A DNA stretch of 64,000 nucleotides from an uncultured Parasphingopyxis sp. (lineage in GTDB: Bacteria > Pseudomonadota > Alphaproteobacteria > Sphingomonadales > Sphingomonadaceae). Location of the stretch: assembly GCA_947259005.1 (NCBI GenBank), contig CAMYKP010000007.1, forward strand, positions 186,001 through 250,000, given 5' to 3'. How positions within the stretch are numbered: position 1 is the stretch's first letter; each line of letters starts with the position of its first letter. The notes beneath the pieces were generated by a model, which did no database searches, was not told where the DNA came from, and saw only the letters and a program-made list of their open reading frames with translations. A program made the position numbers and the translations under genes. This document shows positions 15,390-45,909 of this stretch, piece after piece.

Positions 15390-15439
15390 AAAAATGGTGA
15401 ACGCACCAGGGCTCGAACCTGGGACCCGCTGATTAAGAG
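15390..15439. repeat. attL: 50-bp direct repeat, displaced 3' part of tRNA-Lys
   Basis: Fifty bases identical to 38137-38186, covering the 3' 45 bases of tRNA-Lys(CTT) plus flanking A's. After GATTAAGAG the match to the tRNA stops, so this copy lacks the anticodon 5' arm, D-arm and acceptor 5' strand and is not a tRNA gene. It is the left boundary of the integrated island. The 15226-15389 stretch to its left is chromosomal and has no gene. Confidence 0.92.
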
Positions 15440-15578: not shown

Positions 15579-15599
15579 ATGTTGCCCGCATGTTGCCCT
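15579..15599. promoter_or_regulatory. Doubled GTTGCCC motif upstream of the integrase, candidate arm-type site
   Basis: ATGTTGCCCGCATGTTGCCCT: two GTTGCCC copies 11 bases apart, directly upstream of the integrase start and 140 bases inside attL. A matching pair lies inside the other island end (38065-38083) in the same orientation, and the three internal repeats carry the complement. Integrase arm-site function is inferred. Confidence 0.5.
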
Positions 15600-15616
15600 G
15601 AGATCAGGATCGCGTG

Positions 15617-16984
15617 ATGCCGACACCAAAAGAAGAACTGACGCCCAAGAGGCTCGAGGCGTTGCGCCCTGCTGACACTGGGCAGCGGTATGAGATTGCC
15701 GACACGCACGTCAAAGGTCTCCGCGTCCGTGTCGGCGACGCTGCCGTTGAGTCCGGAAATCGCCGCAGGAAAGGGAAAGCGGCTCAAATTAGCTTCGTTC
15801 TGCTCGCGCGCTTCAAACCAAAAGCAAATCCTACACGCCGAACACTCGGAACTTTTCCTGAGATGATGCTTGCCGATGCGAGGCAAAAGGCGGTGGTTTG
15901 GAAAAGTCTCATTCGGAAAGGTATCGATCCCGCCGACGAAGCTGAGCGCATCAGAATTGAAGCAGCTCGTGCGCTGAATAATCGCCGAGTTCTTTCGGAT
16001 GTGCTCGATCAATATGAGCGGGAGAAGCTTGTCGGCCTCCGTCGAGGAAAAGCTACTAGGCTAGCTCTCGATGGTAAGTGTGGATTGCTCGCGGGATTTA
16101 GAAGTCGAGAGCCGTCTTCAATTTTGCGCTCCGAGATTAGAGTTGCCTTGCGAAAGCGAGCCCTGATCTCGCCAATTTCCGCAAACCGGCAGCTGGCTTA
16201 TGCGAAAGCATTTTTTAACTGGTGCGTGGTCGAGGAAGTTTTGCCTGAGAGCCCGGCGAGATCAATTCCTAAGCCCTCACCGGAGATCGCTCGCGATCGA
16301 CACCATTCTATCGAAGAGTTGAGAGAAATTTGGGCGGCAGCCAATCGTATTGAATATCCTTTTGGTCCGCTGGTCCGTCTTCTCATGGTCTTGCCGATGC
16401 GGCGAGGAGAGTTGGCTGCAATGCCGATTGCCGAACTGCACTTAGACGATGACGATGTGGACGAAGGGATTTGGGTCTTACCAGCCGATCGAACGAAGCG
16501 GGCCAACGCGCTTAGAGTGCCCTTATCGCCGTTGGCAAGATCGATTATCATGGAAGCAATTACGGACGAGCGTCGTCCTGAAAATAGCCCGTTCGTATTT
16601 ACAACGACTGGAAATACGTCGATTTCAGGCTTCGCCAAGGCAAAGCGAAGGCTGGATCGGTTTATCGCCGAGGCTCGCGAAAAAGTGGCAGCTGAGAGTA
16701 ATGTTCAGCCAACGCCAATGCCCCATTGGACGTTTCACGACCTTCGAACGACTTTCACGACATTAGCTTGTGAGGAACTTAATGTGGACGCGGCTGTGGC
16801 CGATCGCATTCTAAACCACGTCGCAAGCGCCACCACATCCAAGATCATGCGCATCTACAACATGTCGGAATTATTTGAGCCACGTCGACACGCGTTGAGG
16901 TCTTGGGCATCACTGATCGACTCTCAGGTGGCATCACCGGACAACATTTCAAACGTCGTCAACTTTCGTTCAACTGGCCAATGA
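15617..16984 (+). CDS. int: Tyrosine-family site-specific integrase of the island
   Basis: 455 residues. The N-terminal part is of the P4-integrase kind (RYEIADTHVKGLRVRVGD ... RRTLGTFPEMMLADARQKA). A core-binding SAM-like region follows, then the catalytic domain with the first Arg in LPMRRGELAAMP, a central Lys region, the H-x-x-R box in WTFHDLRTTFT, and the last His/Tyr in ILNHVASATTSKIMRIYN. It catalyses recombination between attP and the tRNA-Lys 3' end. It lies 178 bases inside attL, reading into the island. The ATG at 15617 is used; a GTG immediately before it is possible. Codon use is more A+T-rich than the flanking chromosome. Confidence 0.92.
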   Translation: MPTPKEELTPKRLEALRPADTGQRYEIADTHVKGLRVRVGDAAVESGNRRRKGKAAQISFVLLARFKPKANPTRRTLGTFPEMMLADARQKAVVWKSLIRKGIDPADEAERIRIEAARALNNRRVLSDVLDQYEREKLVGLRRGKATRLALDGKCGLLAGFRSREPSSILRSEIRVALRKRALISPISANRQLAYAKAFFNWCVVEEVLPESPARSIPKPSPEIARDRHHSIEELREIWAAANRIEYPFGPLVRLLMVLPMRRGELAAMPIAELHLDDDDVDEGIWVLPADRTKRANALRVPLSPLARSIIMEAITDERRPENSPFVFTTTGNTSISGFAKAKRRLDRFIAEAREKVAAESNVQPTPMPHWTFHDLRTTFTTLACEELNVDAAVADRILNHVASATTSKIMRIYNMSELFEPRRHALRSWASLIDSQVASPDNISNVVNFRSTGQ

Positions 16985-17649: not shown

Positions 17650-17710
17650 ACCATGAAGTGAGGCCGTTGGCATGCTTTCTTCACGCCTCATCGTTTTCCG
17701 GGAGGTATCA

Positions 17711-18031
17711 ATGATCGACAATAAGAAATCTGATAAAGGGCGTTACTTGCAACGCCAGGTAGATAAGGATCAGGCAATCAGGTCGAGTCTTCGTCGCCTC
17801 GACGCAGCTGGGATTGATCCCATCATACCTAGATTTGATTGTCTAATTGCCCTGAATCTTTCTGCTCCCACGATTTCGCGAATGCAGCGGCGGAACGAAC
17901 TGCCTCGCTTTGAAGAAATCAGCCCGGGCAGAAAAGGTTGGCGACGAGCCACTCTTCTGGAAGTTATCAGCGGGCGCCGGACGTGGCCCAAACTGGAAAC
18001 GAATGGCCAATCTAAAGATTTGATCAAATGA
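17711..18031 (+). CDS. Small DNA-binding (excisionase/AlpA-like) protein
   Basis: 106 residues. The centre reads RFDCLIALNLSAPTISRMQRRNELPRF...GRKGWRRATLLEVISGRRTWP, the order of an AlpA/MerR-type winged HTH: helix, turn, recognition helix with a Pro, then a wing and an Arg-Trp pair. AlpA-like proteins in P4-type islands are known excisionases or activators of integrase genes. Strong GGGAGG ribosome site before ATG 17711. It overlaps the next gene by 4 bases (ATGA). Confidence 0.6.
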   Translation: MIDNKKSDKGRYLQRQVDKDQAIRSSLRRLDAAGIDPIIPRFDCLIALNLSAPTISRMQRRNELPRFEEISPGRKGWRRATLLEVISGRRTWPKLETNGQSKDLIK

Positions 18032-18609
18032 AGAACTCAGTCGAAATCTGGATGCCTTTTTATATCGGCGATTATCTAGCAGACACTCAGCGACTCACTA
18101 CCGAGCAGCACGGAGCATATTTACTTATCATCTTGGACTACTGGCGGAATGGTCCACCGCCATTGGACGGCGCGATTCTGCAATCAATCGCTCGGCTCGA
18201 TCAACGCGGCTGGAAAAGAAATGAAAAGGCAATACTGAGCCTTTTTGAGGTCAGGAATGAACATCTCTGGCAAGAGCGGATTGAGAGGGCGAGGGCCGAT
18301 GCGATTCGTAATAGAAGAGAAGCTTCAGCACGGGCCGCTACCGCAGCCAATGCACGCTGGGAGAAGGAAAGGAACTCAAAGAAAGCGTCGACCGGCTATG
18401 AGACCAAAGATGCTGAGAGCAATGCCGGAAGCAATGCATCGTGCATTGCATCCGTTGTGCTGGATGAAGTGCCTGCGGATTGCTCTTCATCTTCATCTAC
18501 ATCGCCAAATACATCCTCACCCCATCCCATTTCCGACACGATTCCAGAAGCGCGCCAAATCGGCAATATTGCCGAAGAGTTTCTGCGTGGTAGATCTGTC
18601 ACCAACTAA
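18028..18609 (+). CDS. DUF1376 (YdaU-like) phage-type protein
   Basis: 193 residues. The N-terminal 85 residues match the DUF1376/YdaU pattern found in phage replication regions: WMPFYIGDYLADTQRLTTEQHGAYLLIILDYWRNG, followed by LFEVRNEHLWQERIERARADA. The C-terminus is a basic helix (RRREAS-like) and a Ser-rich tail with an acidic end. It starts inside the stop of the AlpA-like gene. The pair suggests that the left end of the island derives from a prophage or satellite. No helicase loader is seen next to it. Confidence 0.7.
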   Translation: MKNSVEIWMPFYIGDYLADTQRLTTEQHGAYLLIILDYWRNGPPPLDGAILQSIARLDQRGWKRNEKAILSLFEVRNEHLWQERIERARADAIRNRREASARAATAANARWEKERNSKKASTGYETKDAESNAGSNASCIASVVLDEVPADCSSSSSTSPNTSSPHPISDTIPEARQIGNIAEEFLRGRSVTN

Positions 18610-19062
18610 GCGCCGAGGGCGAGGTAAACTGTCATTCGAAACAGACGCGCGAGGATGCTTCCCGAGATGACACTTTGGTTCTGGCGAGAGCCCGACGAAG
18701 GCTTAGCGTAGGCCTCTACATAAAACCGCGATTGATCTAGGCTTCGGCTTCATCAAAAAATGGAGGGACGCGGGAATAGACTTCGACCGCGTCATCATTC
18801 CCACTAGGCTTTACCGATGCCTGGTAACGCTTCCGCTTTGGGTGTCTGTGGGCGCTTGGGTGCCCCCGAGAGAGTAGGGCAGTGAGAGTGAGTGAAACGA
18901 AGTTTTATTGTGTAATTATATTACAAGGCTCGGCCGATGGGGTCGGGCTTCAACAGCAAGGAGATGAATTATGAGCAACAGTCACGCGCGCGCGCGCGCG
19001 AGGCAAACATGAAAATCGTTTATGATATTTGGGCCGCTGTGCTGCTGGCGAGAGAGAAGCGC
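18610..19062. other. Non-coding stretch with short decayed frames
   Basis: About 450 bases without a convincing gene. It contains an alternating CG run (CACGCGCGCGCGCGCGCGAG, about 18984-19003) that sits in a 13-codon frame starting at 18971 behind AAGGAG. A second 16-codon frame begins at 19010 and runs into the repeat. Both look like remnants rather than genes. Base composition is lower in G+C than the chromosome. Confidence 0.4.
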
Positions 19063-19200
19063 TGATCGTTGATCAGAGTTTCCTGGGTAAATCATTCAAA
19101 GAAATTAGAAGCTTCGTTCCAACCTCTTGTTCAAAAGCCAATGAGGGGCAACATGAATAGTTAAAGTCATTGGTGACGTCAGCTTTGCGCCCCAAAAGCC
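19063..19200. repeat. Island intergenic repeat, copy 1
   Basis: About 138 bases closely matching copies at 23671 and 27096. Shared landmarks in order: TGATCGTTGATCAGAG, TCCTGG, AAATCATTCA, GAAGCTTCGTTCCA, CCTCTTGTTCAAA, CCAATG, GGGGCAACATG, GTCATTGGTGACGTCAG. It lies downstream of the left module, at the 3' side of the TPR gene. This copy has a single GGGCAAC box followed by GAATAGTT, which also follows the box near the right island end (reverse complement). Confidence 0.85.
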
Positions 19201-19279
19201 GACGTTCAAGGCGAAATGTTCCACTAAAGCCCGACCGCCGATTTTCGTGCTTTCTCACCGATTGCAGCTGATAAGTCGG

Positions 19280-21856
19280 TCAGGCAGAGATCCAGCGCAC
19301 CGAAGGAGGTGTCCTGCACATGCGGGTTGGCATTCTCACTTCCTCTCCTTCTTTGATGACAATATCGGTGACGATCAAGCAGGTCTGACCATTCAACACG
19401 GAGGCGCCAGTATCGGTGGACTGACCGGTTGCATCGCTGCCATTTGCAGCCTCAGCCTCGCTGCGATTGCGTTCTAGGTTCTGAAGTGTAGTCAGGTTTG
19501 CTTGGGCGGCAACCGTTTCTGGATGCCCAGAGCCCTGATTTCGCTCAGTTCCCTCTATCACTCGACGGAACTGCGCTTCTGCCTCGGCGTACCGGCCCTG
19601 TTCCTGCAGTGAAACAGCGAGATTATTGGTGGCAGCCAAAGTTTCGGGAGCGTCCGGACCTAGCTCGGCTTCGGCGACTGTCTGCGAACGACGCGTAAGT
19701 TGCTCGGCCTCCGAATGACGCCCTTGTGAGATGAACAAGCTTGCTAGATTGTTATTAAGACTAAGCGAATTTGGATGTTCGGAACCGAGCAAACGAATGC
19801 TTGCTTCGAGCGCCCGCTGATAGAGCTGCTCCGCCTCATCATAGCTGCCCTGCTCCTGATACAGAAAACCCAAATTGTTCAGAGTTAATAGCGTGGATGG
19901 ATGCTCGCGTCCCAGTGTGCGCTCCCGAGCTTCGAGCGCCCGCTGGTAGAGCTGCTCCGCCTCGGCGTATCGGCCCTGGGCACTGTATATCTTTGCCAAA
20001 TTGTTGACTGAGGTGAGCGTGTCTGAATGCTCGCGTCCCAGTGTGCGCTCTCGGGCTTCTAGTGCCCGCTGCATGAACCGCTCTGCCTCGGCATGTCGGC
20101 CCAGAGCAAGGTACATTTCGGCCAGATTATTGACCGAGCTGAGCGTTAGTGGATGCTCGCGGCCTAGGGTGCGTTCCCGAGATTCCAGTGCCCGCTGCAT
20201 GAGCCGCTCTGCCTCGGCGTACCGCCCCTGGGCACGGTTTAGCACAGCCAAATTGTTGATTGCGGTGAGCGTGTCTGAATGCTCGCGGCCCAGGGTGCGC
20301 TCCCGAGATTCGAGCACCCGCTGGTAGAGCGGCTCGGCTACGTCATGACGTCCTTGAGCACGGTATAGCACGGCCAGATTGGTGACTGAAGTAAGCGTGT
20401 CGGGATGCTCGCGGCCCAGGGTGCGCTCCAGGCCTTCGAGCGCCCGTTGGTTGAGCGGCTCCGCTTCGTCATAGCGGCCCAGAGCTTGGTATAGCACGGC
20501 CAGATTTGCGACTGACGTGAGCGTGTCGGGATGCTCGCGGCCCAGGGTGCGCTCCCGAGATTCGAGCGCCCGCTGGTAGAGCGGCTCCGCCTCGTCGTAA
20601 CGTCCTTGAGCACGGTATAGCACGGCCAGATTTGCGACTGACGTGAGCGTGTCGGGATGCTCGCGGCCCAGGGTGCGCTCCCGAGATTCGAGCGCCCGCT
20701 GGTAGAGCGGCTCCGCCTCGTCATAGCGGCCCAGAGCTTGGTATAGCACGGCCAGATTGGCGACTGACGTGAGCGTGTCGGGATGTTCGCGGCCCAGGGT
20801 GCGCTCCCGAGATTCGAGCGCCCGCTGGTAGAGCGGCTCCGCCTCGTCGTAACGTCCTTGAGCACGGTATAGCACGGCCAAATTGCTAACTGACGTGAGC
20901 GTGTCGGGATGCTCGCGGCCCAAGGTGCGCTCCAAGGCTTCGAGCGCCCGCTCATAGAGCGGCTCCGCTTCGTCATGACGTCCTTGGGCATGGTATAGCA
21001 CGGCCAAATTGGCGACTGATGTGAGCGTGTCGGGATGCTCGCGACCCAAGGTGCGCTCTTGGGCTTCGAGCGCCCGCTGGTACATCGACTCAGCCTCGTG
21101 ATATCGGCCAAGGAAATGGTATAACACGGCCAGATTGGCGACTGATGTGAGCGTGTCAGGATGCTCGCGGCCTAGAGTGCGTTCTCGAGCTTCGAGTGCC
21201 TGTTGAAAGAGTGACTCCGCCTCTTCGTAACGTCCTTGGGCGAGGTAGAGTTCGGACATATCGCTGACTGACGTGAGCGTGTCGGGATGCTCGCGGCCCA
21301 AGGTGCGTTCCCGGGCTTCCAGTGCCCGCTGCATGAGCCGCTCCGCTTCATCGTAACGTCCCTGGGCACGGTAAAGCACGGCCAGATTGGCGAGTGACGT
21401 GAGTGTGTCTGAATGCTCGCGGCCTAAGGTGCGCTCTTGGGCTTCGAGCGCCCGCTGGTAGAGCGGCTCGGCTTCGTCATGACGTCCTTGAGCACGGTAT
21501 AGCACGGCCAGATTGGCGACTGATGTGAGCGTGTCGGGATGCTCGCGGCCTAGAGTGCGTTCTCGAGCTTCGAGTACCCGCTGATTGAGTGATTCCGCCT
21601 CGTCGTAACGTCCCTGGGCAAAGTAGAGTTCGGACATATCGCTGACTGACGTGAGCGTGTCGGGATGCTCGCGGCCCAAGGTACGCTCAGCTTCTTCCAG
21701 CGCCTGTCGGAACAGCGGTTCTGCATTGCCGTATTGGCCTGCCCGGTACAATTCGACTGCCCTTTCCGAAAGGCTCTGCTGGGCTTGCGTTTGGACCCCG
21801 AACGTCAGGGCGGTGACGGCCAGGGTGACTGTCCAAGCCGACCGCAAGATGTACTT
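19280..21856 (-). CDS. Secreted protein with about 18 tandem 42-residue TPR repeats
   Basis: About 858 residues from a GTG start. A signal peptide (LRSAWTVTLAVTALTFGVQTQAQ) leads into roughly 18 repeats of the kinesin-light-chain type, each NLAVLYRAQGRYDEAEPLYQ followed by RALExRERTLGREHPDTLTSVA. The central repeats are nearly identical in DNA as well as protein, so the array is recent and prone to expansion or loss. The C-terminal 50 residues leave the repeat (GQTCLIVTDIVIKEGEEVRM...MCRTPPSVRW) and hold two cysteines. TPR arrays are protein-binding scaffolds; TPR proteins accompany some defence systems, but an exported one does not fit that simply. The start is uncertain: a TTG 20 codons up is also open. 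Confidence 0.75.
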   Translation of the reverse strand, partial: KYILRSAWTVTLAVTALTFGVQTQAQQSLSERAVELYRAGQYGNAEPLFRQALEEAERTLGREHPDTLTSVSDMSELYFAQGRYDEAESLNQRVLEARERTLGREHPDTLTSVANLAVLYRAQGRHDEAEPLYQRALEAQERTLGREHSDTLTSLANLAVLYRAQGRYDEAERLMQRALEARERTLGREHPDTLTSVSDMSELYLAQGRYEEAESLFQQALEARERTLGREHPDTLTSVANLAVLYHFLGRYHEAESMYQRALEAQERTLGREHPDTLTSVANLAVLYHAQGRHDEAEPLYERALEALERTLGREHPDTLTSVSNLAVLYRAQGRYDEAEPLYQRALESRERTLGREHPDTLTSVANLAVLYQALGRYDEAEPLYQRALESRERTLGREHPDTLTSVANLAVLYRAQGRYDEAEPLYQRALESRERTLGREHPDTLTSVANLAVLYQALGRYDEAEPLNQRALEGLERTLGREHPDTLTSVTNLAVLYRAQGRHDVAEPLYQRVLESRERTLGREHSDTLTAINNLAVLNRAQGRYAEAERLMQRALESRERTLGREHPLTLSSVNNLAEMYLALGRHAEAERFMQRALEARERTLGREHSDTLTSVNNLAKIYSAQGRYAEAEQLYQRALEARERTLGREHPSTLLTLNNLGFLYQEQGSYDEAEQLYQRALEASIRLLGSEHPNSLSLNNNLASLFISQGRHSEAEQLTRRSQTVAEAELGPDAPETLAATNNLAVSLQEQGRYAEAEAQFRRVIEGTERNQGSGHPETVAAQANLTTLQNLERNRSEAEAANGSDATGQSTDTGASVLNGQTCLIVTDIVIKEGEEVRMPTRMCRTPPSVRWISA
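19700..21720 (-). repeat. 126-bp tandem coding repeats of the TPR gene
   Basis: The phrases GTGAGCGTGTCGGGATGCTC and GCGGCCCAGGGTGCGCTC recur about every 126 bases on the plus strand. The units from about 20380 to 21060 are nearly identical, while those at the two ends have diverged, the pattern expected from recent unequal exchange in the middle. Confidence 0.85.
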
Positions 21857-22078
21857 CACCCGTCGATCAAGTGATTTACCAGCTATGGCAGACCTCCCCC
21901 AAAAGTCGCTATGCAATGATTTACATAGGAGCTATCTGATGAAAAGTCTTTCAGGCCGAATGCGTTTTCGGTCGAATGAGTGACGCCTGCGGAATGAAAC
22001 GTCCGCTTCTGATGCTGTGGACGGCTCTCCACCCCTCCAGCGATGATCTTCGCGGGATGAGTCGGAAGGAGAGTCACG

Positions 22079-22322
22079 ATGGAAGAAATAGTTACGATCG
22101 GTCTGGATATCGCGAAGTCGGTGTTTCAAGTGCATGGGGTGAACAGCGCGGGTGAAGCTGTCGTGCGTCGTCAGTTGAAGCGCGCAAGGATGCTACCCTT
22201 CTTTGCCAAGCTGCCGCCGTGCTTGATCGGGATCGAAGCCTGCAACAACTCGCATTACTGGGCCCGTGAGCTGAGTGCGCTTGGGCACGACGTTAAGCTG
22301 ATGCCGGCGCAATATGTGAACC
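22079..22322 (+). pseudogene. IS110-family transposase, N-terminal fragment
   Basis: The first 81 residues of an IS110-family DEDD transposase are intact: EIVTIGLDIAKSVFQVHGV with the first catalytic Asp, LPPCLIGIEACNNSHYWARELSALGH with the conserved Glu, ending at VKLMPAQYV. The match then stops abruptly at about 22322 and unrelated sequence follows, so the transposase lacks more than two thirds of its length and cannot act. The usual IS110 upstream segment with GGAAGGAGAGTC ribosome site is kept. The break coincides with the truncated start of the next gene, which points to one deletion joining the two. Confidence 0.85.
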
Positions 22323-22323
22323 C

Positions 22324-23118
22324 GTGTCGGTTGCCGTCGCGGAGGAAGCGTCGGCAACCTATCAGCTGCTAGCTGCTTCGCTGCGTGATAGGAGTGAGGG
22401 CATCCCCGAAGGTCGGATGACTGCGGCACAGTTGCGCAATGCTTTCCGCGCCGGACCCGACGGCCCCGGTCTGCTGCTGGTCGGCAAGCAGTGGTGCTCG
22501 CCGGAGCAGGTTCTGCGGGGGCCAGCTAACTTCGGTTCGCGAAGACCTTTCGCCCCGCACGTCGACGGGCTTGAGTCGATGTGGAAGACGCTTGGGGTTG
22601 GTCTACCGACAGAGGTCGAAGCGATCGCGGTTCTCAAGGAAATGGTTGAGGGTCCGCCATCACCAGCCGATCTCGGTGTCGCGATCCGTGCGCTCACCAT
22701 CGTAGCGGATGCCGTAGCCGACATGTCATCTCAGTTTCGGGCTACACTGCGACAGCTGCCGCTCTGGATTGGCCGGGAGTGGACGGTGGAGCGCCCCGTT
22801 TACGCGCTCGAGGGTGAGGCACTTCTGGCGAGCGCCTCTGCTGACATGAGGGTCTGGCGGCCCGGCTTGACCTCCTTCACGGTGCTGGAGCCGCTTCTCG
22901 ATCCGCTTGGCTTGGTGCGGTTGACCCTCTCCGACTTCCAGGCCGCCCCGACACCGGCATACGGCATAGCGGAAGGCGAGGCGCCACGGCCAACCTTTTC
23001 AGGTGCCGTCTCGCTGTTGAGACAGGAGTTAGATCGTGAACGAAGGGGCAAGGCCTTCGGGCGACATGGTGTTCGCCAAGCGCCACAAGACCAAGGAACG
23101 CGCGTTCACATCTGGTAG
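22324..23118 (+). pseudogene. N-terminally truncated gene, probably of a large sacsin/DUF3883-type protein
   Basis: About 264 codons are open from a GTG that lies at the junction with the IS110 fragment and lacks a ribosome site. The text (EGRMTAAQLRNAFRAGPDGPGLL, RRPFAPHVDGLESMWKTLGV, LRQLPLWIGREWTVERPVYALEGEALL) resembles the middle of large ATP-binding proteins that end in a DUF3883 nuclease domain; such proteins are known in defence islands. The N-terminal ATPase half is missing. The last 27 codons overlap the next gene and look out of frame. The family call is by memory and only moderate. Confidence 0.5.
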
Positions 23119-23575
23119 TGGCACTCAGAGGAAGTCGGGCAGCCCTCCGGTCCGCACCGTCTTGCCTCCGAGCAGTGATCGCGAAAGTATGGCGCTTGAC
23201 GCGGTTCGCCGGGCGCTGCGACTGGAATCGCTGCAGCTCAACGACCTGCGCGCTGCGCGGGGTGTCGGCGTTGATGCGATCGACGAGTTGAGGCAATGCT
23301 ATGAGATCAAGATGAACTCGGGTGCCGGGATACCAGCCGACGTCACGCTGACCGCCAGCGAGGTCGAGGCGGCGCGAAACGACCCAAACTTTTTTCTCGC
23401 GATCGTCAGTGGACTAGAGGATGGTATCGGCCAGTTGCGTGTCCGCTTCATCTTCGATCCGCTAAGTACTTTGGACGTGAGAGTTCGCGGTGACCTGACG
23501 TTGACGGGCGTCGATAAGGCGGAGGCGCTCGAGTTTACTTTCCAAAAACGGGACGGAGAGGATGGGGCAAACTGA
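23036..23575 (+). CDS. DUF3883-like nuclease-fold protein
   Basis: 179 residues from a GTG with an AGGAG ribosome site 7 bases upstream; a TAG two codons before the GTG rules out an upstream extension. The C-terminal 100 residues follow the DUF3883 pattern: GVDAIDELRQCYEIKMNSG (with the E-x-K of a restriction-endonuclease fold), ITL-type strand as DVTLTASEVEAARNDPNFFLAIVSGLE, then beta strands to the end. The N-terminus is basic and disordered (MVFAKRHKTKERAFTSGSGT). It overlaps the truncated gene before it by about 80 bases. It was probably the nuclease part of a two-gene or fused defence protein; activity without the lost half is doubtful. Confidence 0.6.
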   Translation: MNEGARPSGDMVFAKRHKTKERAFTSGSGTQRKSGSPPVRTVLPPSSDRESMALDAVRRALRLESLQLNDLRAARGVGVDAIDELRQCYEIKMNSGAGIPADVTLTASEVEAARNDPNFFLAIVSGLEDGIGQLRVRFIFDPLSTLDVRVRGDLTLTGVDKAEALEFTFQKRDGEDGAN

Positions 23576-23670
23576 AACAGAAGTAACGTTCGCTAGTTGA
23601 ATCTCCCGTCCAAGGGCCGTCCGTTCGAAATCGAGCTAGGACCCGGCTCATTCGTGAAATTCGGACTCTC

Positions 23671-23810
23671 TGAACGTTGATCAGAGCCTCCTGGACAAAT
23701 TATTCAAAGAAATTAAGAGCTTCGTTCCAACCTCTTGTTCAATAGCCAATGAAGGACAACATGAAGGCAACATAGATAGCGTAGGTCATTGGTTCCGGAC
23801 GCTTTTCGCC
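23671..23810. repeat. Island intergenic repeat, copy 2
   Basis: About 140 bases matching copies 1 and 3, with GTTGATCAGAG, CATTC/TATTCAAAGAAATTA, GAGCTTCGTTCCAACCTCTTG, CCAATGAAGGACAACATG, GGCAACATAGATAGCG and GTCATTGG in the same order. It carries the doubled (G)GCAACAT box. It occupies most of the 350-base gene-free stretch between the DUF3883 gene and the convergent nuclease-like gene. Confidence 0.85.
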
Positions 23811-23924
23811 TCATTTTCCGCCGCTAGATTTGCATCCAACGGATCCAAAAAACTGTCGCTCTGCTTGCACGACGGACGGTCAGTGGTGAGTATTCGTCAC
23901 GCCTGATTGCGAGCAGGGTAGTGG

Positions 23925-25694
23925 CTACGCGCCGGACTTCCCACGTTTGCCGCCCTGTTTCTTTGTGTGATCAATGACAACGAGATCCGGCGGCCGGTGC
24001 TCAAAGACGTCGCAGGGGTGCAGGCCATCGACGATAAACGAGTCGATCAACCCTTGTCGCTCGAGATCGCTGCGCCAGTTTCCCTCCGGAAACTCCAACA
24101 CCGGGCCGACGGTCACTCCCTCATAGGCGACCGTTAACGGCCCCAGTTGGAACTCAACCATTTTCGTAACCAGCGCATTGTCGGCGTGCCCGGAATAGGT
24201 GCGTAAGACATGCTGGATCAACGCCATGTCGCCGTCCGACCTTTGGAGCAGCCGCTCAAGCGTCCGGAAGTTAATCACCTTTGTGTTCTCTGCACCGAAG
24301 AACATGCCGCCATTGTCGGACGTGATGACAAGAGTATCGAGTGCGACCACGAAGCCCTCGAAGTTCGGATGGCCCTCTTTCGGCAAAATGCGCGACAGCC
24401 AGCGGGCGCCGTTCTCTGTCCGGATGAAACGCTGAAGCGCCTCGACCTGACGAAAGGCTTTGGATACGCTGTCTTTGTTGAGCACTTTGAGTTGGTCCTT
24501 TGCCCAGCGTGGCGGAATTGGGCATTTGAGCTCACAGACGAAAATCATATAGCCAAGCGTTGGCTCGACGGAGATTACCAGCAGGTCTACGTCGGGTAAG
24601 GCGGCGTCGTAGTCGCGAAGCGACACCTCGCTGTGACAGATAAAGCCCTCAGCTTCCCACAACGCCTTGACGCGCCTTACGAACGCGCTACCAATTTCGT
24701 TGCTCACCTGCTCCAAGAAGATTTCTGGGCGACGCTGCGCGATGACGCGCAGCATGTTAACCAAGCCTTCCGCGATTGCTAAATGGTGAGGCCGCATCGC
24801 TATGCGTCCATCCGGTTCGCCCTCGCGCATGAGCGAGAAATAGCTCGCGTCGATCTTCCCGGCAGTCGCGTCGCGATCATACGCAATATCTTTCAGGATC
24901 CGGTGCGCAATGCCGGGCGCGACGCCAAGCTCCTCCGATATGCCTTCAAGCAGATCGCCTTCCGGCATGTAAATCGCACCGACCGCTTCTTGTGCGCGAG
25001 CCAGATAGCGATGGTAGAGCGCCTTCTTCAGCAATATCCCGTAGACCTCGTGAAATTGGCGGTAAGAGTAGCCGCCGAGGTCGATCTGGCTGTCGGGCGA
25101 GATTAACGAGAAATAGGCCGCAAGCTTTAGGTCGACTTCCGCCTGGATCAGCGGGGCGGCCGCTTCCAAATTGGGTGTGACCATGCCCTCGGGTTCGGTT
25201 TTGAGTAGCCGCATGATCTCTTCGGAATGATTGAAGTCTCGGAAATGATGGCTCGACCCGAGTACATGGTCGTTGTGAACGGTGAAAAACTGGCGTGGGA
25301 TCGACTTATCCGCAAATCGAATCTCGACTCGCTCACCTTCGAAAGACCAGCTCATCGAACCCGGCGCGTTGTACGAGTAATAGAGATATTCGCGGATCAT
25401 GTAATAATGCGCCGCGAACGCGAGATCGTCCATCATCTGCCGGAGATCCGCCTCCCGAGAGATGTCCGCCTGATAACCATCCATGCCCGCAACGAGATGG
25501 CTGGCCATGATCGAGTAGCCGCACTGGATCCACTCGGCCGCATCGGGGCGATTCTTCAACGCCCCGATTTCGTATAGTTCGGATGCAATGTGGAGCGCGC
25601 TCGTGCTATTCCACCGTCGGCTTGGCAGCGCATCGAGTGCGGTGTCGAGCTGCCGCTCGAAATCCTGCAATTGCGCCTTCAGTCCTGTGGGCAT
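23925..25694 (-). CDS. Large PD-(D/E)XK-like protein of unknown family
   Basis: 589 residues, mostly helical in the first 340. At about residues 345-395 the text reads GFICHSEVSLRDYDAALPDVDLLVISVEPTLGYMIFVCELKC (quoted here in parts): a Glu in the first helix-strand, Asp in PDVDLLVI and ELK on the next strand, the order of a PD-(D/E)XK nuclease core. Before it is a helix-turn-helix-like piece (LEGISEELGVAPGIAHRILKDI). The C-terminus is basic (HTKKQGGKRGKSG). It is divergent from the ATPase-Mrr gene, with 106 bases between starts, and this pair is framed by repeats 2 and 3. I do not recognise the full protein. A nuclease in a two-gene defence module is inferred. Confidence 0.65.
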   Translation of the reverse strand: MPTGLKAQLQDFERQLDTALDALPSRRWNSTSALHIASELYEIGALKNRPDAAEWIQCGYSIMASHLVAGMDGYQADISREADLRQMMDDLAFAAHYYMIREYLYYSYNAPGSMSWSFEGERVEIRFADKSIPRQFFTVHNDHVLGSSHHFRDFNHSEEIMRLLKTEPEGMVTPNLEAAAPLIQAEVDLKLAAYFSLISPDSQIDLGGYSYRQFHEVYGILLKKALYHRYLARAQEAVGAIYMPEGDLLEGISEELGVAPGIAHRILKDIAYDRDATAGKIDASYFSLMREGEPDGRIAMRPHHLAIAEGLVNMLRVIAQRRPEIFLEQVSNEIGSAFVRRVKALWEAEGFICHSEVSLRDYDAALPDVDLLVISVEPTLGYMIFVCELKCPIPPRWAKDQLKVLNKDSVSKAFRQVEALQRFIRTENGARWLSRILPKEGHPNFEGFVVALDTLVITSDNGGMFFGAENTKVINFRTLERLLQRSDGDMALIQHVLRTYSGHADNALVTKMVEFQLGPLTVAYEGVTVGPVLEFPEGNWRSDLERQGLIDSFIVDGLHPCDVFEHRPPDLVVIDHTKKQGGKRGKSGA

Positions 25695-25800
25695 CGCCGA
25701 TCAACTTTCTGTCTTTGGCTCCAGTTCTATCCAGCGCGCCGGCCGTAGTCGACTTGTCTGCCCGAGCGGGGCTAGAGGTAATTGATTTCCTTCGGCGTGG

Positions 25801-26946
25801 ATGTTCTATGCTACGTCTATGAGCCGCGCACTGAAAGAACTAATGAGCCAGCCGGTGGTGGCTGGATATGTTCGCAATGAGCCCGTCCTGCAGAACCTGC
25901 TTGCTGCGCTCGGTGACGGTGATCCGATAATCGAGCTGGTCGGCGCTCCTGGCACCGGCAAGACCACATTCCTTCAATCGCTCATACATGACCGGCCTGA
26001 TCTCTTTGATGGTACCATCGAGTATTTTGCTGGAAGTCCTAGCTTTCCGCTCGTCGAAGCCGTCGATGTGATCGCTGAAAGCTTCCGCCGTTCTGGTGGC
26101 CGTAACCTCCTCGTCATCGATGAGGGTGAGCGCATGAACAAGAGCGATCTGCTTGAAGGCATCAATCGCCTCGGTACGGGTCCCTGGCGATTTGCGACCA
26201 TTATTGGCACGACCGAGCCACTCGATGTTGGTCGGGCCATTCACATCATGCCGCTGAACTACACCGACATGGCGGCGCTGCTGGAAAGCCAGCTTGAACA
26301 AGCGTTGCCACCCGATGTACTCAACAAGCTTTGGGTAGCATCGCAGGGTGTGCCGCGCCTGGCGCATATTCTCGCCGAACGCTGGCGTACCGGTGGCGTA
26401 CGCACCTTTGACGCGCTCGCCGATCTATTCAACCCGCTCGCTGTTCCAGGTCTGATCGATTCTTATGGACGTCCGCTGGCGCGCGGCAGTCACGAAGAGA
26501 AGACGATCATTTCGCACGTTCGCTTCGTCAGCGACGAGCTGTTTCAGACGGTGAGCAAGGATCCGGATCTTGTTCATGCCCTGACGCCACGCGAGTTTGA
26601 GGAACTATCAGCAGAGCTGTTCCGGCGGCAGGGCTACACGGTGAAGATGACGCCGCAGACCCGCGATGGGGGCAAGGACCTCTATCTAGCCAAGGCAGAT
26701 GGCTTTGGATCGTTCCTGTACATCGTCGAATGCAAGCGTTGGGCACCAGATAATCCCGTCGACGTCGGTGTCGTCCGGGCGTTGTACGGGGTGGCTCAGC
26801 ATGAGCGCGTCACCGCCGCCATGACCCTGACTACTTCGTATTTCAGTAAGGACGCAGCAGATTTCGCCGAAGAGGTACAATATCAGCTGACCCTGAAGGA
26901 CTTCATCGACCTGAAACTCCTGCTCGCGCCCCATCGCGAGAGTTGA
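25801..26946 (+). CDS. AAA-type ATPase fused to an Mrr-like restriction endonuclease domain
   Basis: 381 residues. Residues 30-200 are a P-loop ATPase: Walker A GAPGTGKT (48-55), Walker B NLLVIDEGE (about 102-110), sensor-like ATIIGTTE, and a lid helix region. Residues about 255-375 are an Mrr-type nuclease: LTPREFEELSAELFRRQGY, the D of RDGGKDL and the ExK of VECKRW (about 309-311), then a Q-containing helix VGVVRALYGVAQHE as in Mrr_cat. The ATPase-first, nuclease-last order is uncommon. It is divergent from the PD-(D/E)XK-like gene and likely works with it. The second in-frame ATG (25819) is an alternative start. Confident on domains, not on the system. Confidence 0.75.
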   Translation: MFYATSMSRALKELMSQPVVAGYVRNEPVLQNLLAALGDGDPIIELVGAPGTGKTTFLQSLIHDRPDLFDGTIEYFAGSPSFPLVEAVDVIAESFRRSGGRNLLVIDEGERMNKSDLLEGINRLGTGPWRFATIIGTTEPLDVGRAIHIMPLNYTDMAALLESQLEQALPPDVLNKLWVASQGVPRLAHILAERWRTGGVRTFDALADLFNPLAVPGLIDSYGRPLARGSHEEKTIISHVRFVSDELFQTVSKDPDLVHALTPREFEELSAELFRRQGYTVKMTPQTRDGGKDLYLAKADGFGSFLYIVECKRWAPDNPVDVGVVRALYGVAQHERVTAAMTLTTSYFSKDAADFAEEVQYQLTLKDFIDLKLLLAPHRES

Positions 26947-27095
26947 CTCCAATCCCGTCCGTGGGCACTCGCAACTGCCGACAATCCGGCCAACACTGCG
27001 ACCTAGGTGAGCAGCAGCTATCTCGCTTGGTCGCCTGAAAGCAATTATTCCGATACCAGCCCAGGACCTGCCGCTTGTCCATTGCGGTGAGCGTT
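26947..27095. other. Short non-coding spacer before repeat 3
   Basis: The 149 bases between the ATPase-Mrr stop and repeat 3 show no open frame worth reporting and no clear terminator. Together with repeat 3 and the stretch 27241-27477 they form a gene-free interval of about 530 bases. The right part, just before the methyltransferase stump, may hold remnants of the deleted methyltransferase region. Confidence 0.35.
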
Positions 27096-27240
27096 TGATC
27101 GTTGATCAGAGTTTCCTGAGTAAATCATTCATCGAAACTAGAAGCTTTGTTCCAGCCTCTTGTTCAAAATCCAATGGTGGGCAACATGGGGCAACGTAGT
27201 TAGCGAAAGTCATTGGTGACGTCAGTTTTGCGTCCAAAAG
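27096..27240. repeat. Island intergenic repeat, copy 3
   Basis: About 145 bases, closest to copy 1: TGATCGTTGATCAGAGTTTC, TAAATCATTCA, GAAGCTTTGTTCCA, CCTCTTGTTCAAAA, TGGGCAACATGGGGCAACGT, GCGAAAGTCATTGGTGACGT and CAGTTTTGCG. It has the doubled GGGCAAC box in full. It separates the nuclease/ATPase pair from the helicase module. Confidence 0.85.
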
Positions 27241-27477: not shown

Positions 27478-27735
27478 TTGTCAATTCGGTACATATGTAA
27501 CGGCTATTTCGACCGCATCCTGCGAAAGAACGACGCTGCCGCGAAGGAACTGAAGAAGACCACGTTCACCAACCTCTTCAATACGCGCCCGGCTTGGCTC
27601 GGCCATACCCACTACGCGGTCAATGAAGTTGTCGTCGATGCCTTTGGCTTGGGTGACGATTTCCGCTACATTTTAACCAACGACGAAATCCTCGCCCGCC
27701 TGTTCAGGCTCAATCAGAAAAGGGCGTTGCCATGA
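27478..27735 (+). pseudogene. C-terminal stump of a DNA methyltransferase (type IIG/BREX-like)
   Basis: 85 codons from a TTG. The text (LKKTTFTNLFNTRPAWLGHTHYAVNEVVVDAFGLG...LTNDEILARLFRLNQKRA) matches the very end of large adenine methyltransferases, where NLYNxRPxWL, a YG-W-type loop and LSDEEILxRLLALNxER are typical. The catalytic and AdoMet-binding parts are absent upstream, where repeat 3 and non-coding sequence lie. The stop overlaps the helicase start (ATGA), so the intact ancestor was translationally coupled to the helicase. Whether the stump is translated today is unknown. Confidence 0.6.
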
Positions 27736-38062: not shown

Positions 38063-38064
38063 AT

Positions 38065-38083
38065 GTTGCCCAGATTGTTGCCC
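38065..38083. promoter_or_regulatory. Doubled GTTGCCC motif near attR, candidate arm-type site
   Basis: GTTGCCCAGATTGTTGCCC: two GTTGCCC copies 12 bases apart, 54 bases inside the right end, in the same orientation as the pair next to the integrase (15581-15598). The reverse complement reads GGGCAAC...GGGCAACATTTGAATAGTT, and repeat copy 1 has GGGGCAACATGAATAGTT. Confidence 0.5.
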
Positions 38084-38136
38084 TATAAATAAACGAGCTG
38101 TGTGATCTGAACCCAACTTTAAGATAACCTATTGAA

Positions 38137-38217
<81 letters not shown>

Positions 38218-38306: not shown

Positions 38307-40268
38307 CTATCCGGTAAACTCCGCCGTGATTTGATCGACCATCCTGTCCAACCCGAAAGTCTTGCGAACAAATTGGGAGCCGGTTCGACCAGCCCTTTTC
38401 CTGCGCCATCTCTTGCCGAGCCAGGACAATGCGGCCTCGGCCAGCGCTTCGGCACTATGGTCTTCGACAAGCTGGGCCGATTTGCCGGGAAGTACCGCTT
38501 CTCTGACGCCCCCGATATCGAAGGAGATGACGGGCACTCTGGCCGCCTGGGCCTCGATCACGACATTGGGCAATCCCTCGGATGCCGAACTGAGGAGAAA
38601 CAGGTCGAACAGGGGAAGTCTCGACGGAAGATCCGATACGTTCCCAGGCATGTGGACCTGATCGCCAAAGCCGAGGGAATCCGCGAGGGCGCGGCACGAT
38701 CCATGCAATTCGCCATCGCCGAACAGGATGAAATGGGTTTCGGGCCGTCGACGATGGATCAGCGCGGCAGTTTCCAGCCATAGTTCCGGTTGTTTCACCT
38801 CGGCAAACCGAAAGGCTGTGCCGATGATCAGTGTCCCGGCAGGGATGCCAAACGCTTCGCGTGCTTCGGCAAGACTGGCCCTGTCGGGCAGCGCGTTGAA
38901 CGGTGCCATGTCTATGCCGTTATGGATGACGTTGGCGCGATCCATCCGGCCTCCGTCGATCCAGTCGAGATAGTCGTCCAACCCTGTTTGGGAGCAGTTC
39001 AGGAAACGGATTTCGGGTCTAGCGAGAAACGCACGATAAGCCTCGGCCCATCCTTCGGTTTTCTCCGGACGGGTATATTGGTTGGGATGCATGCCGTGGG
39101 TATGGAGAATGATCCGGGGGACCCCGGCCAGGATCCCGGCCATGGCGCCCAGAAGGCAACACTGATCGAGCCAGCAATGCAATATGGCGGGCCGTCTTTC
39201 CCTGAGCATTTCCACCAGAGCAGAGCCGCGCATCGCATAATGCCCGATGGCACTGCGCAACGCTGGTTCGACATTTTGCATCCGGACACTTCCTACCTCG
39301 ACAATCTCATCCGGCGAGGCACCGGTTTCCGGCAGGTAGAAACGGCAATCCCGTGCCCCATTACCCTGACCGAAATTCATCAGCCACAGGTTTAGAGGCT
39401 CGATATCTCCGCGTTCGCGCAACTCTCGATAACAATTCGCCATGATGCGTTCAGCGCCGCCGCATGCAAGCGAGCCGCCCAGTATAACCGCGCCGTTCCG
39501 GCCGGCATGATCGTCACCCGGCGGTCGCCGCGCGATGAGCCGTGCGGTCAGTTCGGTCATTGTCGGTGGCGGTTCCGCCTCGTTCCGATCGGCAGCGGCA
39601 AGAGTTCTCAACGATGAGCCATCCTGCTGCAGCGCATCATCGAGCCATTTCAAACGCAGGCCGATATTGTCGTCGTCCGGAAGCATCTGGCGGGCTTCAT
39701 GCAGGAGAGCTGCATTCCGGCCTATATCCCCGCGGACAAGGACGGTTCGCGCAGCCAGCCGCCAGAGCGCAAGGTCGTTAGCGGGAATGCCGCCCTGGCG
39801 GTGCCCCATCCGCGCTGCGACTATTGCTGCATCCCTGTCCTCCTTCAACAGATGCTGCTCGATATCGAGAAAGACATCCGGTTTGCGGCTCAGACGGACG
39901 GAGATTGCTTGCCCCAGCGCTTCGACCGGATTTTGCTCCATGACGCGAATGGCACCGATCGCAGCACGGGCTACGCGAGTTGAGCTGTCAGAATCGTTCA
40001 ACAGGCGCCAGGCAAGACTGAGCACGGCCTCGCAATTCTGCGGTTTAAGGCCGGGTGAAGCCAGGTTTGCCTGCCGCATCGCGATCAGCGCTGCCGTGTC
40101 AATCGCAGGCTCCCGGTCGAGAATATGGAGCGCCGTTTCGACGGCCGCTTCGTGATCGCCGGAAGCCGCCTGTGCGCGGGCGATCCTCGTCTGCGCGCGG
40201 ATCGTTTTCTTTGGTAGTGACGCAGTGTCGGCACGCCCTGATTCCAAAGGATCCGGGCCGGTCGTCAT
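38307..40268 (-). CDS. GT4-family glycosyltransferase with helical N-terminal domain
   Basis: 653 residues. The first 230 are helical and may form TPR-like repeats (TRIARAQAASGDHEAAVETALHIL). From about 265 a GT-B fold begins with VILGGSLACGGAERIMANCY (glycine-rich loop), HCWLDQCCLLGAMAGILAGV and IILHTHGMHP. The donor-site half has VIHNGIDMAPF, IIGTAFRFAEVKQPELWLE and the E-x7-E motif in SASEGLPNVVIEAQAARVPV. It likely transfers a sugar to a cell-surface polysaccharide or lipid. It ends next to tRNA-Lys and lies 3 bases downstream of rodA on the same strand, so it may be transcribed with the cell-shape operon. Confidence 0.8.
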   Translation of the reverse strand: MTTGPDPLESGRADTASLPKKTIRAQTRIARAQAASGDHEAAVETALHILDREPAIDTAALIAMRQANLASPGLKPQNCEAVLSLAWRLLNDSDSSTRVARAAIGAIRVMEQNPVEALGQAISVRLSRKPDVFLDIEQHLLKEDRDAAIVAARMGHRQGGIPANDLALWRLAARTVLVRGDIGRNAALLHEARQMLPDDDNIGLRLKWLDDALQQDGSSLRTLAAADRNEAEPPPTMTELTARLIARRPPGDDHAGRNGAVILGGSLACGGAERIMANCYRELRERGDIEPLNLWLMNFGQGNGARDCRFYLPETGASPDEIVEVGSVRMQNVEPALRSAIGHYAMRGSALVEMLRERRPAILHCWLDQCCLLGAMAGILAGVPRIILHTHGMHPNQYTRPEKTEGWAEAYRAFLARPEIRFLNCSQTGLDDYLDWIDGGRMDRANVIHNGIDMAPFNALPDRASLAEAREAFGIPAGTLIIGTAFRFAEVKQPELWLETAALIHRRRPETHFILFGDGELHGSCRALADSLGFGDQVHMPGNVSDLPSRLPLFDLFLLSSASEGLPNVVIEAQAARVPVISFDIGGVREAVLPGKSAQLVEDHSAEALAEAALSWLGKRWRRKRAGRTGSQFVRKTFGLDRMVDQITAEFTG

Positions 40269-40271
40269 TGC

Positions 40272-41387
40272 CTAGCGTCTCCGCATCCGGTTTTCGCGGT
40301 CGATGGACATCAATATGCCGATGCAGATCAGCACGGTAAGCATCGCCGAGCCGCCATAGGAGACCAGCGGCAACGGGATGCCGACGACCGGCGCAAGGCC
40401 CATCACCATCATCAGGTTGATCGCGAAATAGAAGAAAATGGTTGTCGAAAGCCCGGCTGCCGTGAGCTTTGAGAAAGTGCTCTGGGCGTTCTGGCCAACC
40501 CGGATACCCCAGCGGATCAGCATGGCGAATGCGAAAATCAGCAGGAGTCCGCCAAACAGGCCGAATTCTTCCGCCATGGTCGCGAAAACGAAATCGGTAT
40601 GGCCTTCGGGCAGATAGGAGAGGTGGCTCTGGGTGCCGTTAAGGAAGCCCTTGCCGAACAGGCCGCCAGATCCGATCGCGATCTTGGACTGGGTGATGTG
40701 ATAGCCGGTGCCAAGTGGATCATTTTCCGGGTTTAGAAAAGTGAGGACCCGGTTGCGCTGATAGTCTTCGAGCAGGAACATGAAGGCGAGGGGAATGGCG
40801 GCGGCCAACGCCACGGCTCCTCCGATAAACAGTCGCAGAGGCAGGCCGGCGAGGAACATGATCGTGACGCCGGCGGCAACGAGCACAACCGTCGTCCCGA
40901 GATCGGGCTGGATGACGACCAGCGCGGCGGGCAGGCCGATCAGCAGCAATGCCGGCCAGATCGCTACGAGCCGCCGCAATTCGCCCGAAGGCAGCGTGTC
41001 ATAATATTTGGCAAGGGCGAGCACGAGCACGGGTTTCATGATTTCGGAAGGCTGGATGGTCATGAAGCCGAGATTGAGCCAGCGCTGGCTGCCGCCGCCG
41101 ACCTGGCCGATGATCTCGACACCAAGCAGCGCCAGCAATGTCACGATATAGACCGGGTAGGCGAAAAATTTCCAATGCTCCTCGCGAAACCGCGACAGCA
41201 TGATGGCCATGGCGAAAAAGACCATGAAGCGGACGGCTTGGGAGGCTGCCCAGGGCTGTATCTGCCCGCCTGCCGCCGAATAGAGAATAGCCAGGCCGAA
41301 TCCGGCAATCGCCAGAACCAGCAGGATCAACCGCCACGGCAGCTGGGCGATCTGCTCGGGGACGAGAGAGTCCTGATGCGTGCTCAT
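40272..41387 (-). CDS. rodA: Peptidoglycan glycosyltransferase RodA
   Basis: 371-residue SEDS protein with ten predicted membrane helices. Landmarks: QPSEIMKPVLVLALAKYYDTL (about 130), IQPDLGTTVVLVAAG (about 160) with the catalytic-type Asp in the QPDLG loop region, ENDPLGTGYHITQSKIAIGSGGLFGKGF (about 235), LPEGHTDFVFATMAEEFGL and LVSYGGSAML near the end. It polymerises lipid II during cell elongation with PBP2. Its ATG overlaps the mrdA stop by 4 bases (ATGA). Confidence 0.93.
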   Translation of the reverse strand: MSTHQDSLVPEQIAQLPWRLILLVLAIAGFGLAILYSAAGGQIQPWAASQAVRFMVFFAMAIMLSRFREEHWKFFAYPVYIVTLLALLGVEIIGQVGGGSQRWLNLGFMTIQPSEIMKPVLVLALAKYYDTLPSGELRRLVAIWPALLLIGLPAALVVIQPDLGTTVVLVAAGVTIMFLAGLPLRLFIGGAVALAAAIPLAFMFLLEDYQRNRVLTFLNPENDPLGTGYHITQSKIAIGSGGLFGKGFLNGTQSHLSYLPEGHTDFVFATMAEEFGLFGGLLLIFAFAMLIRWGIRVGQNAQSTFSKLTAAGLSTTIFFYFAINLMMVMGLAPVVGIPLPLVSYGGSAMLTVLICIGILMSIDRENRMRRR

Positions 41388-43366: not shown

Positions 43367-43878
43367 AGGGTAAGCCTCCGCCGGTCAAGCCGCGCGCACA
43401 GGCGCAGGCAGAGCGGGAACAGCAAGATCGCAGCGGCAATTTGGGGCAGCAACGGGACGAAAACCCATCCACCGCCGGTAAGCACAGTCAACACCATGTC
43501 AGCCATGATATAGAAAATCAATGCGCCTGTCGCGGCCAGCCAGTCGATCCAGTAATCGCGCCACATTGCGCGGTTCACGGCGAAATCGAGCGTGAGCAGG
43601 ATGATCGTCCAGAGCAGCATGCCGCTGCCGATCGGGCTTCCGGAAATCAGGTCGTCGAACAGGCCGAAGGGCAGGCCGGCCCATATCGGCCAGATTTCGG
43701 GACGAAGGAAACGCCATGCGAGAAAGATCATCAGCGCGATCGGCGGGAGGATCGGTGCCTGCGCAACCAGGGGCACGAGGCAGACGAGCGATCCGGCCAC
43801 CACACTGGCCGAGGGAATGAGGCTGAGCTGCGCACGGACCAGCGCCAGGTTTTCGTCCGCCGCATGCAGCCGGGTCAT
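43363..43878 (-). CDS. mreD: Rod shape-determining protein MreD
   Basis: 171-residue membrane protein with about five helices (PLVAQAPILPPIALMIFLAW, IWAGLPFGLFDDLISGSPIGSG as a re-entrant-like conserved loop, MLLWTIILLTLDFAV, ATGALIFYIMADMVLTVL). It links MreC to the elongasome. ATGA overlap with mreC upstream and GTGA overlap with mrdA downstream. Confidence 0.85.
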   Translation of the reverse strand: MTRLHAADENLALVRAQLSLIPSASVVAGSLVCLVPLVAQAPILPPIALMIFLAWRFLRPEIWPIWAGLPFGLFDDLISGSPIGSGMLLWTIILLTLDFAVNRAMWRDYWIDWLAATGALIFYIMADMVLTVLTGGGWVFVPLLPQIAAAILLFPLCLRLCARLDRRRLTL

Positions 43879-44795: not shown

Positions 44796-44826
44796 CTGGC
44801 CTTCTCCCTTGGCTTATCTGGCCGGC

Positions 44827-45909
<1,083 letters not shown>

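Follow-up and report, generated by a model that had tools for sequence, protein, structure and literature searches.

How defence genes are gathered into islands is an open question, and a 64,000-nucleotide stretch from an uncultured Parasphingopyxis sp. raises it in concrete form (positions 186,001 to 250,000 of contig CAMYKP010000007.1; hereafter the window). Here, three intergenic repeats of about 140 bp separate groups of cargo genes, among them defence genes, within a 22.8-kb island delimited by tRNA-Lys sequence. What are these repeats, and could they record how the island was put together? We find that all three copies carry, in inverted orientation, the motif that occurs in pairs at both ends of the island and at the ends of three related islands. 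We lean modestly towards reading the repeats as relic or cryptic attachment-end segments of elements related to the island's own.

Three intergenic repeats in a tRNA-Lys island

The island is bounded by 44-bp exact direct repeats of the 3' part of tRNA-Lys(CTT) (BLASTN, 44/44). One belongs to an intact tRNA-Lys(CTT) gene (38142..38217, minus strand, found with Rfam; the direct repeat is 38143-38186), and the other is a 3' fragment at the integrase-side end (15396..15439, minus strand). Adjoining this left end is the gene for a 456-residue tyrosine integrase with Arm-DNA-bind_3 and Phage_integrase domains (15614..16984, plus strand).

Sequence alignment and BLASTN place the three copies at 19062..19205 (copy 1), 23670..23813 (copy 2), and 27095..27240 (copy 3), all on the plus strand. 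The initial annotation had described three repeats of about 140 bp, and its coordinates are correct to within a few bases; it was also right that they share an orientation and are intergenic, as the copies align end to end in one orientation and no open reading frame of at least 80 residues overlaps any of them. Counted over columns with letters in both copies, identity is 111/133 (83.5%) between copies 1 and 2, 116/133 (87.2%) between copies 1 and 3, and 107/143 (74.8%) between copies 2 and 3. This likeness is not due to chance, because BLASTN E-values between the copies are 1.4e-34 (1-3), 2.8e-27 (1-2), and 1.1e-24 (2-3). The left border is sharp, the preceding 40 bases being just 28-40% alike, and the right one less so. 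Convergent genes flank copies 1 and 2, with a broken TmtA gene ahead of copy 2; copy 3 is preceded by a plus-strand gene and followed by a plus-strand gene fragment.

The full repeat appears to be confined to this island. Within the assembly (2.45 Mb, 83.9% complete), BLAST and a sequence model recovered the three island copies only, and a sequence-only model gave the same three over the window plus 12 stretches around related integrases. Sampling 396 genomes at the level of the order, 397 of the family, and 367 of the class gave no full copy beyond the repeat's own genome; these samples overlap, each includes the own genome, and at most two candidates per genome were scored among the matches listed, such that second copies may escape. 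A model search across 218 genomes likewise found the repeat in its own genome only. It was absent from 9 other genomes of the genus, plasmid and phage records held no full copy, and three exact patterns gave 0 matches in viral contigs. Running the repeat against genomes, as the initial annotation had suggested, therefore turned up no full copy outside the island. Among the matches listed, short ones of 20-37 bases occurred in 6 other genomes of the order and 4 other genomes of the class and were not counted as copies. Those at loci L013 and L064-L067 sit in unrelated-looking sequence and were taken as chance, and near the end of the G621 island, copy 3 matches at 15/16, a likeness dropped for its E-value of about 1. 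Matches to the last ~30 bp elsewhere are explained by a dispersed imperfect palindrome (GTCCGCTTTGCGCCCCAAAGCGGAC-like), which at 19176-19209 takes in the 3' end of copy 1 and also occurs at loci L004-L008, L012, and L014-L017.

A paired motif at island ends and in the repeats

Of the integrase's relatives, the ten closest among those retrieved as loci (L019-L028) all have a tRNA-Lys fragment nearby. In 12 comparator elements, a short motif occurs twice, in direct orientation and 11-12 bp apart, near the integrase gene (int). A one-mismatch rule recovers integrase-side direct pairs spaced by 11 bp in 11 of the 12, and the twelfth (G411a) has one with two mismatches. At the far end, a pair is present in 7 of the 8 comparators having both ends; G411a lacks one on the right. 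The motif itself varies among elements: TGTTGCCC is found in the window and in G234, G621, and G539, while other ends carry GTTAGCC, GGAGCCTA, GGAACCTA, GCAACCTA, and others, in a layout that is alike despite the different sequences. From their position, spacing, and conservation, we infer that these end motifs are arm-type sites, which the integrase would bind. Comparator islands of this kind, with similar layout and differing motifs, should be useful for reading arm-domain specificity. Paired end motifs occur at tRNA-Lys integrase islands in G234, G621, G539, G411, G492, G302, G562, G453, G500, G039, and G484. Related integrases were also found at 35 loci in viral contigs, one of them close (54%, L113) and with a different motif at its integrase-side end.

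A matrix trained on 14 sites chosen by hand from the ends of the G234, G621, and G539 islands was run over the window. Four pairs in the 64 kb score at least 19.8, and the fifth best reaches 13.5. Two of the four lie at the island ends: one at the tRNA side (38063..38084, plus strand, spacing 12, score 29.3) and one at the integrase side (15579..15599, plus strand, spacing 11, score 26.7). The other two lie in the repeats, in copy 3 (27178..27197, minus strand, spacing 10, score 27.8) and copy 2 (23753..23773, minus strand, spacing 11, score 19.8). Copy 1 holds a single site (19145..19154, minus strand, score 16.2), the best single site of the window; the lack of a partner is explained by an 11-bp gap where copy 1 is aligned with copy 2. 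Relative to the island ends, the motif lies on the other strand in each of the three copies.

Pairs of this quality are rare in random sequence. In 200 random 64-kb sequences, made with only dinucleotide frequencies preserved (as in all our statistical nulls), pairs scoring at least 19.8 averaged 0.025 per sequence, with at most one in each. Across 564,510 bases in 11 comparator stretches, 9 pairs passed, 8 of them at the ends of the training islands; the one elsewhere looks by eye like chance, as which weaker pairs in G500 and G453 were also taken after inspection. A genome-wide search at spacing 11 with up to 2 mismatches gave 3 matches: copy 2, the integrase-side end, and another place in the assembly. 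Allowing up to 3 mismatches raised the count to 24, versus 8 for the reversed pattern.

As far as scanned, the interiors of related elements are different. Each of the 12 comparators was scanned with its own single motif, and at spacings of 10-12 and up to 2 mismatches, none contained an internal pair over the stretch scanned. That stretch runs between both tRNA ends in 8 comparators and, in the 4 with one end in the fetched sequence, to an arbitrary coordinate of 40,000-45,000; of the G411 elements, it takes in all but the third (from 53978). G234 contains one internal pair that has a spacing of 9 and 2 mismatches, and a few more internal pairs appear at 3 mismatches. The G411 genome (loci L052, L053, and L071-L073) carries a tandem tRNA-Lys array, in which three tRNA fragments are separated by about 43 and 11 kb and the integrases differ in end motif.

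Likeness to the island ends extends in part beyond the motif. When inverted, copies 2 and 3 align to the integrase-side end with scores of 38 and 36 (each reached by 2 of 300 shuffles), and inverted copy 1 aligns to the tRNA-side end with a score of 30 (reached by 13 of 300). The sharp left border of the repeat may also resemble a recombination core. The 44-bp direct repeat ends in the anticodon arm of tRNA-Lys, which reads CTGA-CTCTTAA-TCAG, and the repeats tentatively begin with CTGA-N7-TCAG in copies 1 (19062..19076) and 2 (23670..23684) and with TTGA-N7-TCAG in copy 3 (27095..27109), all on the plus strand, each a weak match noticed post hoc. The 7-base centres are TCGTTGA in copies 1 and 3 and ACGTTGA in copy 2, versus CTCTTAA in tRNA-Lys. 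Over a 22-base core, copies 1 and 2 match at 15/22, tied third with four other positions behind the two true cores, and copy 3 matches at 14/22. The window contains the pattern CTGA-N7-TCAG six times, and three of these occurrences fall in neither a repeat nor the tRNA. Another candidate core for the repeat, CCTCTTGTTCA, lies ~21 bp from the arm motif, rather than 91 as at the tRNA-side end, and was dropped.

Origin of the repeats

Because the repeats carry the motif of the integrase family, they are likely to be attachment-end segments of that family. If so, the left border of each repeat would perhaps be a core-like inverted repeat, and a bipartite arm-type site, which a TGTTGCCC-type integrase may recognise through its arm-binding domain, would follow 68 bp further on; copy 1 would have lost one half of this site. 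The island probably arose from several related elements, or else its internal ends were copied from one. These elements would have lost their integrases and remaining attachment sites, each leaving behind one arm-bearing end, and the island today may move, if at all, as a single unit via its tRNA-Lys ends.

Several observations weigh against this interpretation. First, the arm motif runs opposite to that at the island ends, an arrangement that tandem insertion at a single tRNA would not produce, and no tRNA-Lys fragment is detectable beside the repeats, BLASTN matching the two island ends only. Gapped local alignment of the repeats to the tRNA does no better than shuffling, with 73, 154, and 236 of 300 shuffles reaching the observed scores. 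Second, the geometry differs: the distance from core to arm is 68 bp in the repeats versus 91 at the tRNA-side end and 135 at the integrase side, and the likeness to a core is a lead only, because it was noticed after the alignment had been seen. Third, the resemblance to the ends is uneven. Copies 2 and 3 resemble the integrase-side end and copy 1 the tRNA-side end, the other 3 of 6 repeat-to-end comparisons are not significant past the motif, and a block (TATCATCGCGTTTCA) that the island in the window shares with G234 and G621 at the integrase-side end is absent from all three repeats. Fourth, the motif evidence is not equally strong in every copy. Copy 1 has no pair, and the sites of copy 2, the weakest pair, rank 18th and 19th in the window when taken singly; copy 2 alone is a weak case, because the best pair reached 21.0 in 1 of 20 random sequences. 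Finally, we found neither a partner end or integrase remnant in the island interior nor a free-standing element ending in the repeat.

The initial annotation had offered two explanations: a chain of accreted elements, each leaving its end behind, or defence modules exchanged between the repeats. The former is strengthened by the presence in the repeats of what is presumably the arm-type motif of the island's integrase family. Tandem accretion at tRNA-Lys does occur among the relatives, as the three tRNA-Lys fragments of G411 illustrate. In its simple form it is unsupported here, because the motif points the other way from that at the island ends and no tRNA fragment is detectable beside the repeats. 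Ends that are older, decayed, or inverted, or else copied from a single such end, are therefore a better fit than a recent tandem array. The latter explanation, cassette exchange, is possible but unsupported: no other island with the repeat was found among the genomes, plasmids, and phages searched, and the breaks in the TmtA and type IIG genes do not coincide with repeat borders. At the G454 locus, which holds a relative of a 589-residue cargo gene, DNA similarity is confined to that gene, and there is no repeat within the 59 kb fetched.

The repeats could instead stem from one ancestral arm-bearing segment that was duplicated within the island, through recombination or copying, and then diverged, in which case they would mark duplications rather than insertions. 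We consider this unlikely. In its favour, the three copies align end to end at 75-87%, whereas the ends of related islands share short blocks only, and among the genomes searched, the repeat is found in one island. Against it, the left flanks cannot be aligned (28-40% over 40 bases), so nothing else was visibly duplicated along with the repeats, and the divergence among copies would require long residence in an island whose 44-bp ends remain identical.

It is quite unlikely that the repeats are working secondary attachment sites, at which the integrase would recombine the copies and delete or swap the modules between them, the distinct 7-base centres preventing a reaction with tRNA-Lys. Points in favour are the direct orientation of the copies, the arm motif in all three (a single site in copy 1), and the core-like left border with centres differing from that of tRNA-Lys. 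The segments also differ somewhat in G+C content, which is 52.3% from int to copy 1 and 60.1, 57.3, and 57.8% in the segments that follow. Yet these would be one-armed sites only, copy 1 keeping a single arm site; the centre of copy 2 differs from the others, and the geometry is unlike that of the island ends. Nor has a second arrangement of modules been seen, because no other copy of the repeat was found. A two-tier system, in which the whole island moves via tRNA-Lys while internal one-armed sites, sharing the half-sites and the arm motif and having a 7-bp centre of their own, let that integrase delete, invert, or take up defence modules, is decidedly improbable.

Very unlikely, in our view, is that the repeat is a dispersed sequence, similar to miniature inverted-repeat transposable elements (MITEs) or repetitive extragenic palindromes, or else a decayed gene end, with its likeness to arm sites arising by chance. 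The final ~30 bp of the repeat (~30-40 bp by BLAST) do belong to the palindrome scattered across its own and related genomes. However, the other ~110 bp are found nowhere else in the genome and have short matches only in the 396, 397, and 367 genomes sampled. Two arm pairs within about 430 bp are also far above chance. MITEs have terminal inverted repeats and a target duplication and usually occur in many copies; the repeat has three copies in the assembly, and no terminal inverted repeat is visible in it by eye. As for a gene end, the copies lie at gene 3' ends, and a plus-strand frame of 32 codons stays open in all three through the 96 ungapped columns; a minus-strand frame, open for 22 codons in all three, nearly does so, with a stop near its end. 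These frames have no coding signature. Differences by codon position are 1/5/5, 4/4/4, and 5/9/8 in the plus frame and 4/1/3, 2/3/2, and 6/4/5 in the minus frame, with no excess at third over second positions in either; 6/9, 7/9, and 12/16 of the changed plus-frame codons alter the residue, and indels disrupt the frames further along the repeat. The plus-frame peptides had no Pfam match at E-values up to 1, and that of copy 1 had no plasmid match and one insignificant phage match (E-value of 0.1). Given the codon-position differences and the lack of a family, coding sequence is unlikely, an old gene end being conceivable. A structured RNA was likewise rejected: folding z-scores lie between -1.73 and +1.78, 9 of 200 shuffles reach the lowest of them (minus strand of copy 1), and at Rfam gathering scores, tRNA alone was matched in the window, with no RNA family in the repeats.

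That the repeats are regulatory sites, through which the integrase or excisionase controls cargo transcription, is hardly credible: the integrase-side arm pairs do lie just upstream of int, and in another element attP-bound IntS is said to block further transcription of intS (PMC11963761), but copies 1 and 2 sit where convergent genes end, away from promoters.

Island cargo and comparison with known systems

Between int and copy 1 are genes for a 119-residue protein (17672..18031, plus strand) with a weak excisionase/regulator match (phrog_66, E=1.5e-4) and no Pfam match, and for a DUF1376/primosomal-like protein (18028..18609, plus strand). The segment from copy 1 to copy 2 encodes an 878-residue tetratricopeptide repeat (TPR) protein and the broken TmtA. 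The TPR protein (19283-21916, minus strand) is built of 126-bp (42-residue) tandem units, 15 of them in register. TmtA retains positions 915-1143 and 1332-1484 of 1486, its N-terminal portion and a stretch of its interior being gone; it is abutted, within 22079-23575 on the plus strand, by sequence that weakly matches the N-terminus of an IS110 transposase (PF01548, E=0.0033). Between copies 2 and 3 lie the genes for a 589-residue protein and an Mrr-type nuclease. The former (23928-25694, minus strand) has no match in Pfam, PADLOC, NCBIfam, or PHROGs. Its relatives, at 75% in 1 of 198 other genomes of the family (G454) and at 72% on a Rhizobium plasmid, have different surroundings, and it is a candidate stand-alone gene of no recognised function. 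Past copy 3 come a type IIG fragment, a PDC-S37/ProA-like helicase-nuclease (its ProA score under the cut-off), a SIR2-like protein (slightly under the Pfam cut-off), a 201-residue protein without a match, and an LmuB-like ATPase. The type IIG restriction enzyme fragment is C-terminal (positions 955-1025 of 1136; 27478-27735, plus strand) and immediately precedes the PDC-S37/ProA-like gene.

Gene units lying between same-orientation repeats near gene 3' ends recall the gene cassettes of integrons, with their attC sites. The island's integrase, with Arm-DNA-bind_3 and Phage_integrase domains, has another domain make-up, though no search was aimed at IntI; the repeats form no hairpin beyond what shuffled sequences form, and the modules hold divergent gene pairs. 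Attachment sites of the integrase family have a direct pair of arm motifs 11-12 bp apart; the spacing is 11 in copy 2 and 10 in copy 3, and copy 1 has a single site.

Genomic islands of Pseudomonas contain modular defence hotspots delimited by flanking genes (PMC12629846). The present island is similar in that its defence genes are grouped in modules, and differs in that the hotspots are described as limited by flanking genes rather than by integrase-site repeats. In ICEMlSymR7A, the attP site used by IntS holds five TGKTGGTATC arm motifs (PMC11963761). Both elements have short arm motifs repeated next to int and around a core; in ICEMlSymR7A, the arm sites lie in attP and hence at element ends, whereas here extra copies lie in the interior. 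Among integrative and conjugative or mobilizable elements, composite islands at tRNA genes and tandem accretion are known, as are cis-mobilizable elements (CIMEs), decayed elements that keep attL and attR and have lost the integrase (PMC5704250). Our island resembles these in being a composite at a tRNA with putative arm-type sites at internal boundaries (pairs in copies 2 and 3, a single site in copy 1). It is unlike a CIME, which keeps attL and attR, in that the repeats would represent one end each, with no detectable tRNA core and an inverted motif.

A full-text search of the literature did not find internal arm-motif copies at the borders of defence modules, which is not proof of their absence. 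If our interpretation of the repeats as attachment-end segments is true, they would be a physical trace of the steps by which the island was assembled, and site-specific recombination as a builder of defence islands would become testable. Composite islands and arm sites are already known, and what is new here is the presence of internal copies of a presumed integrase arm motif in a defence island.

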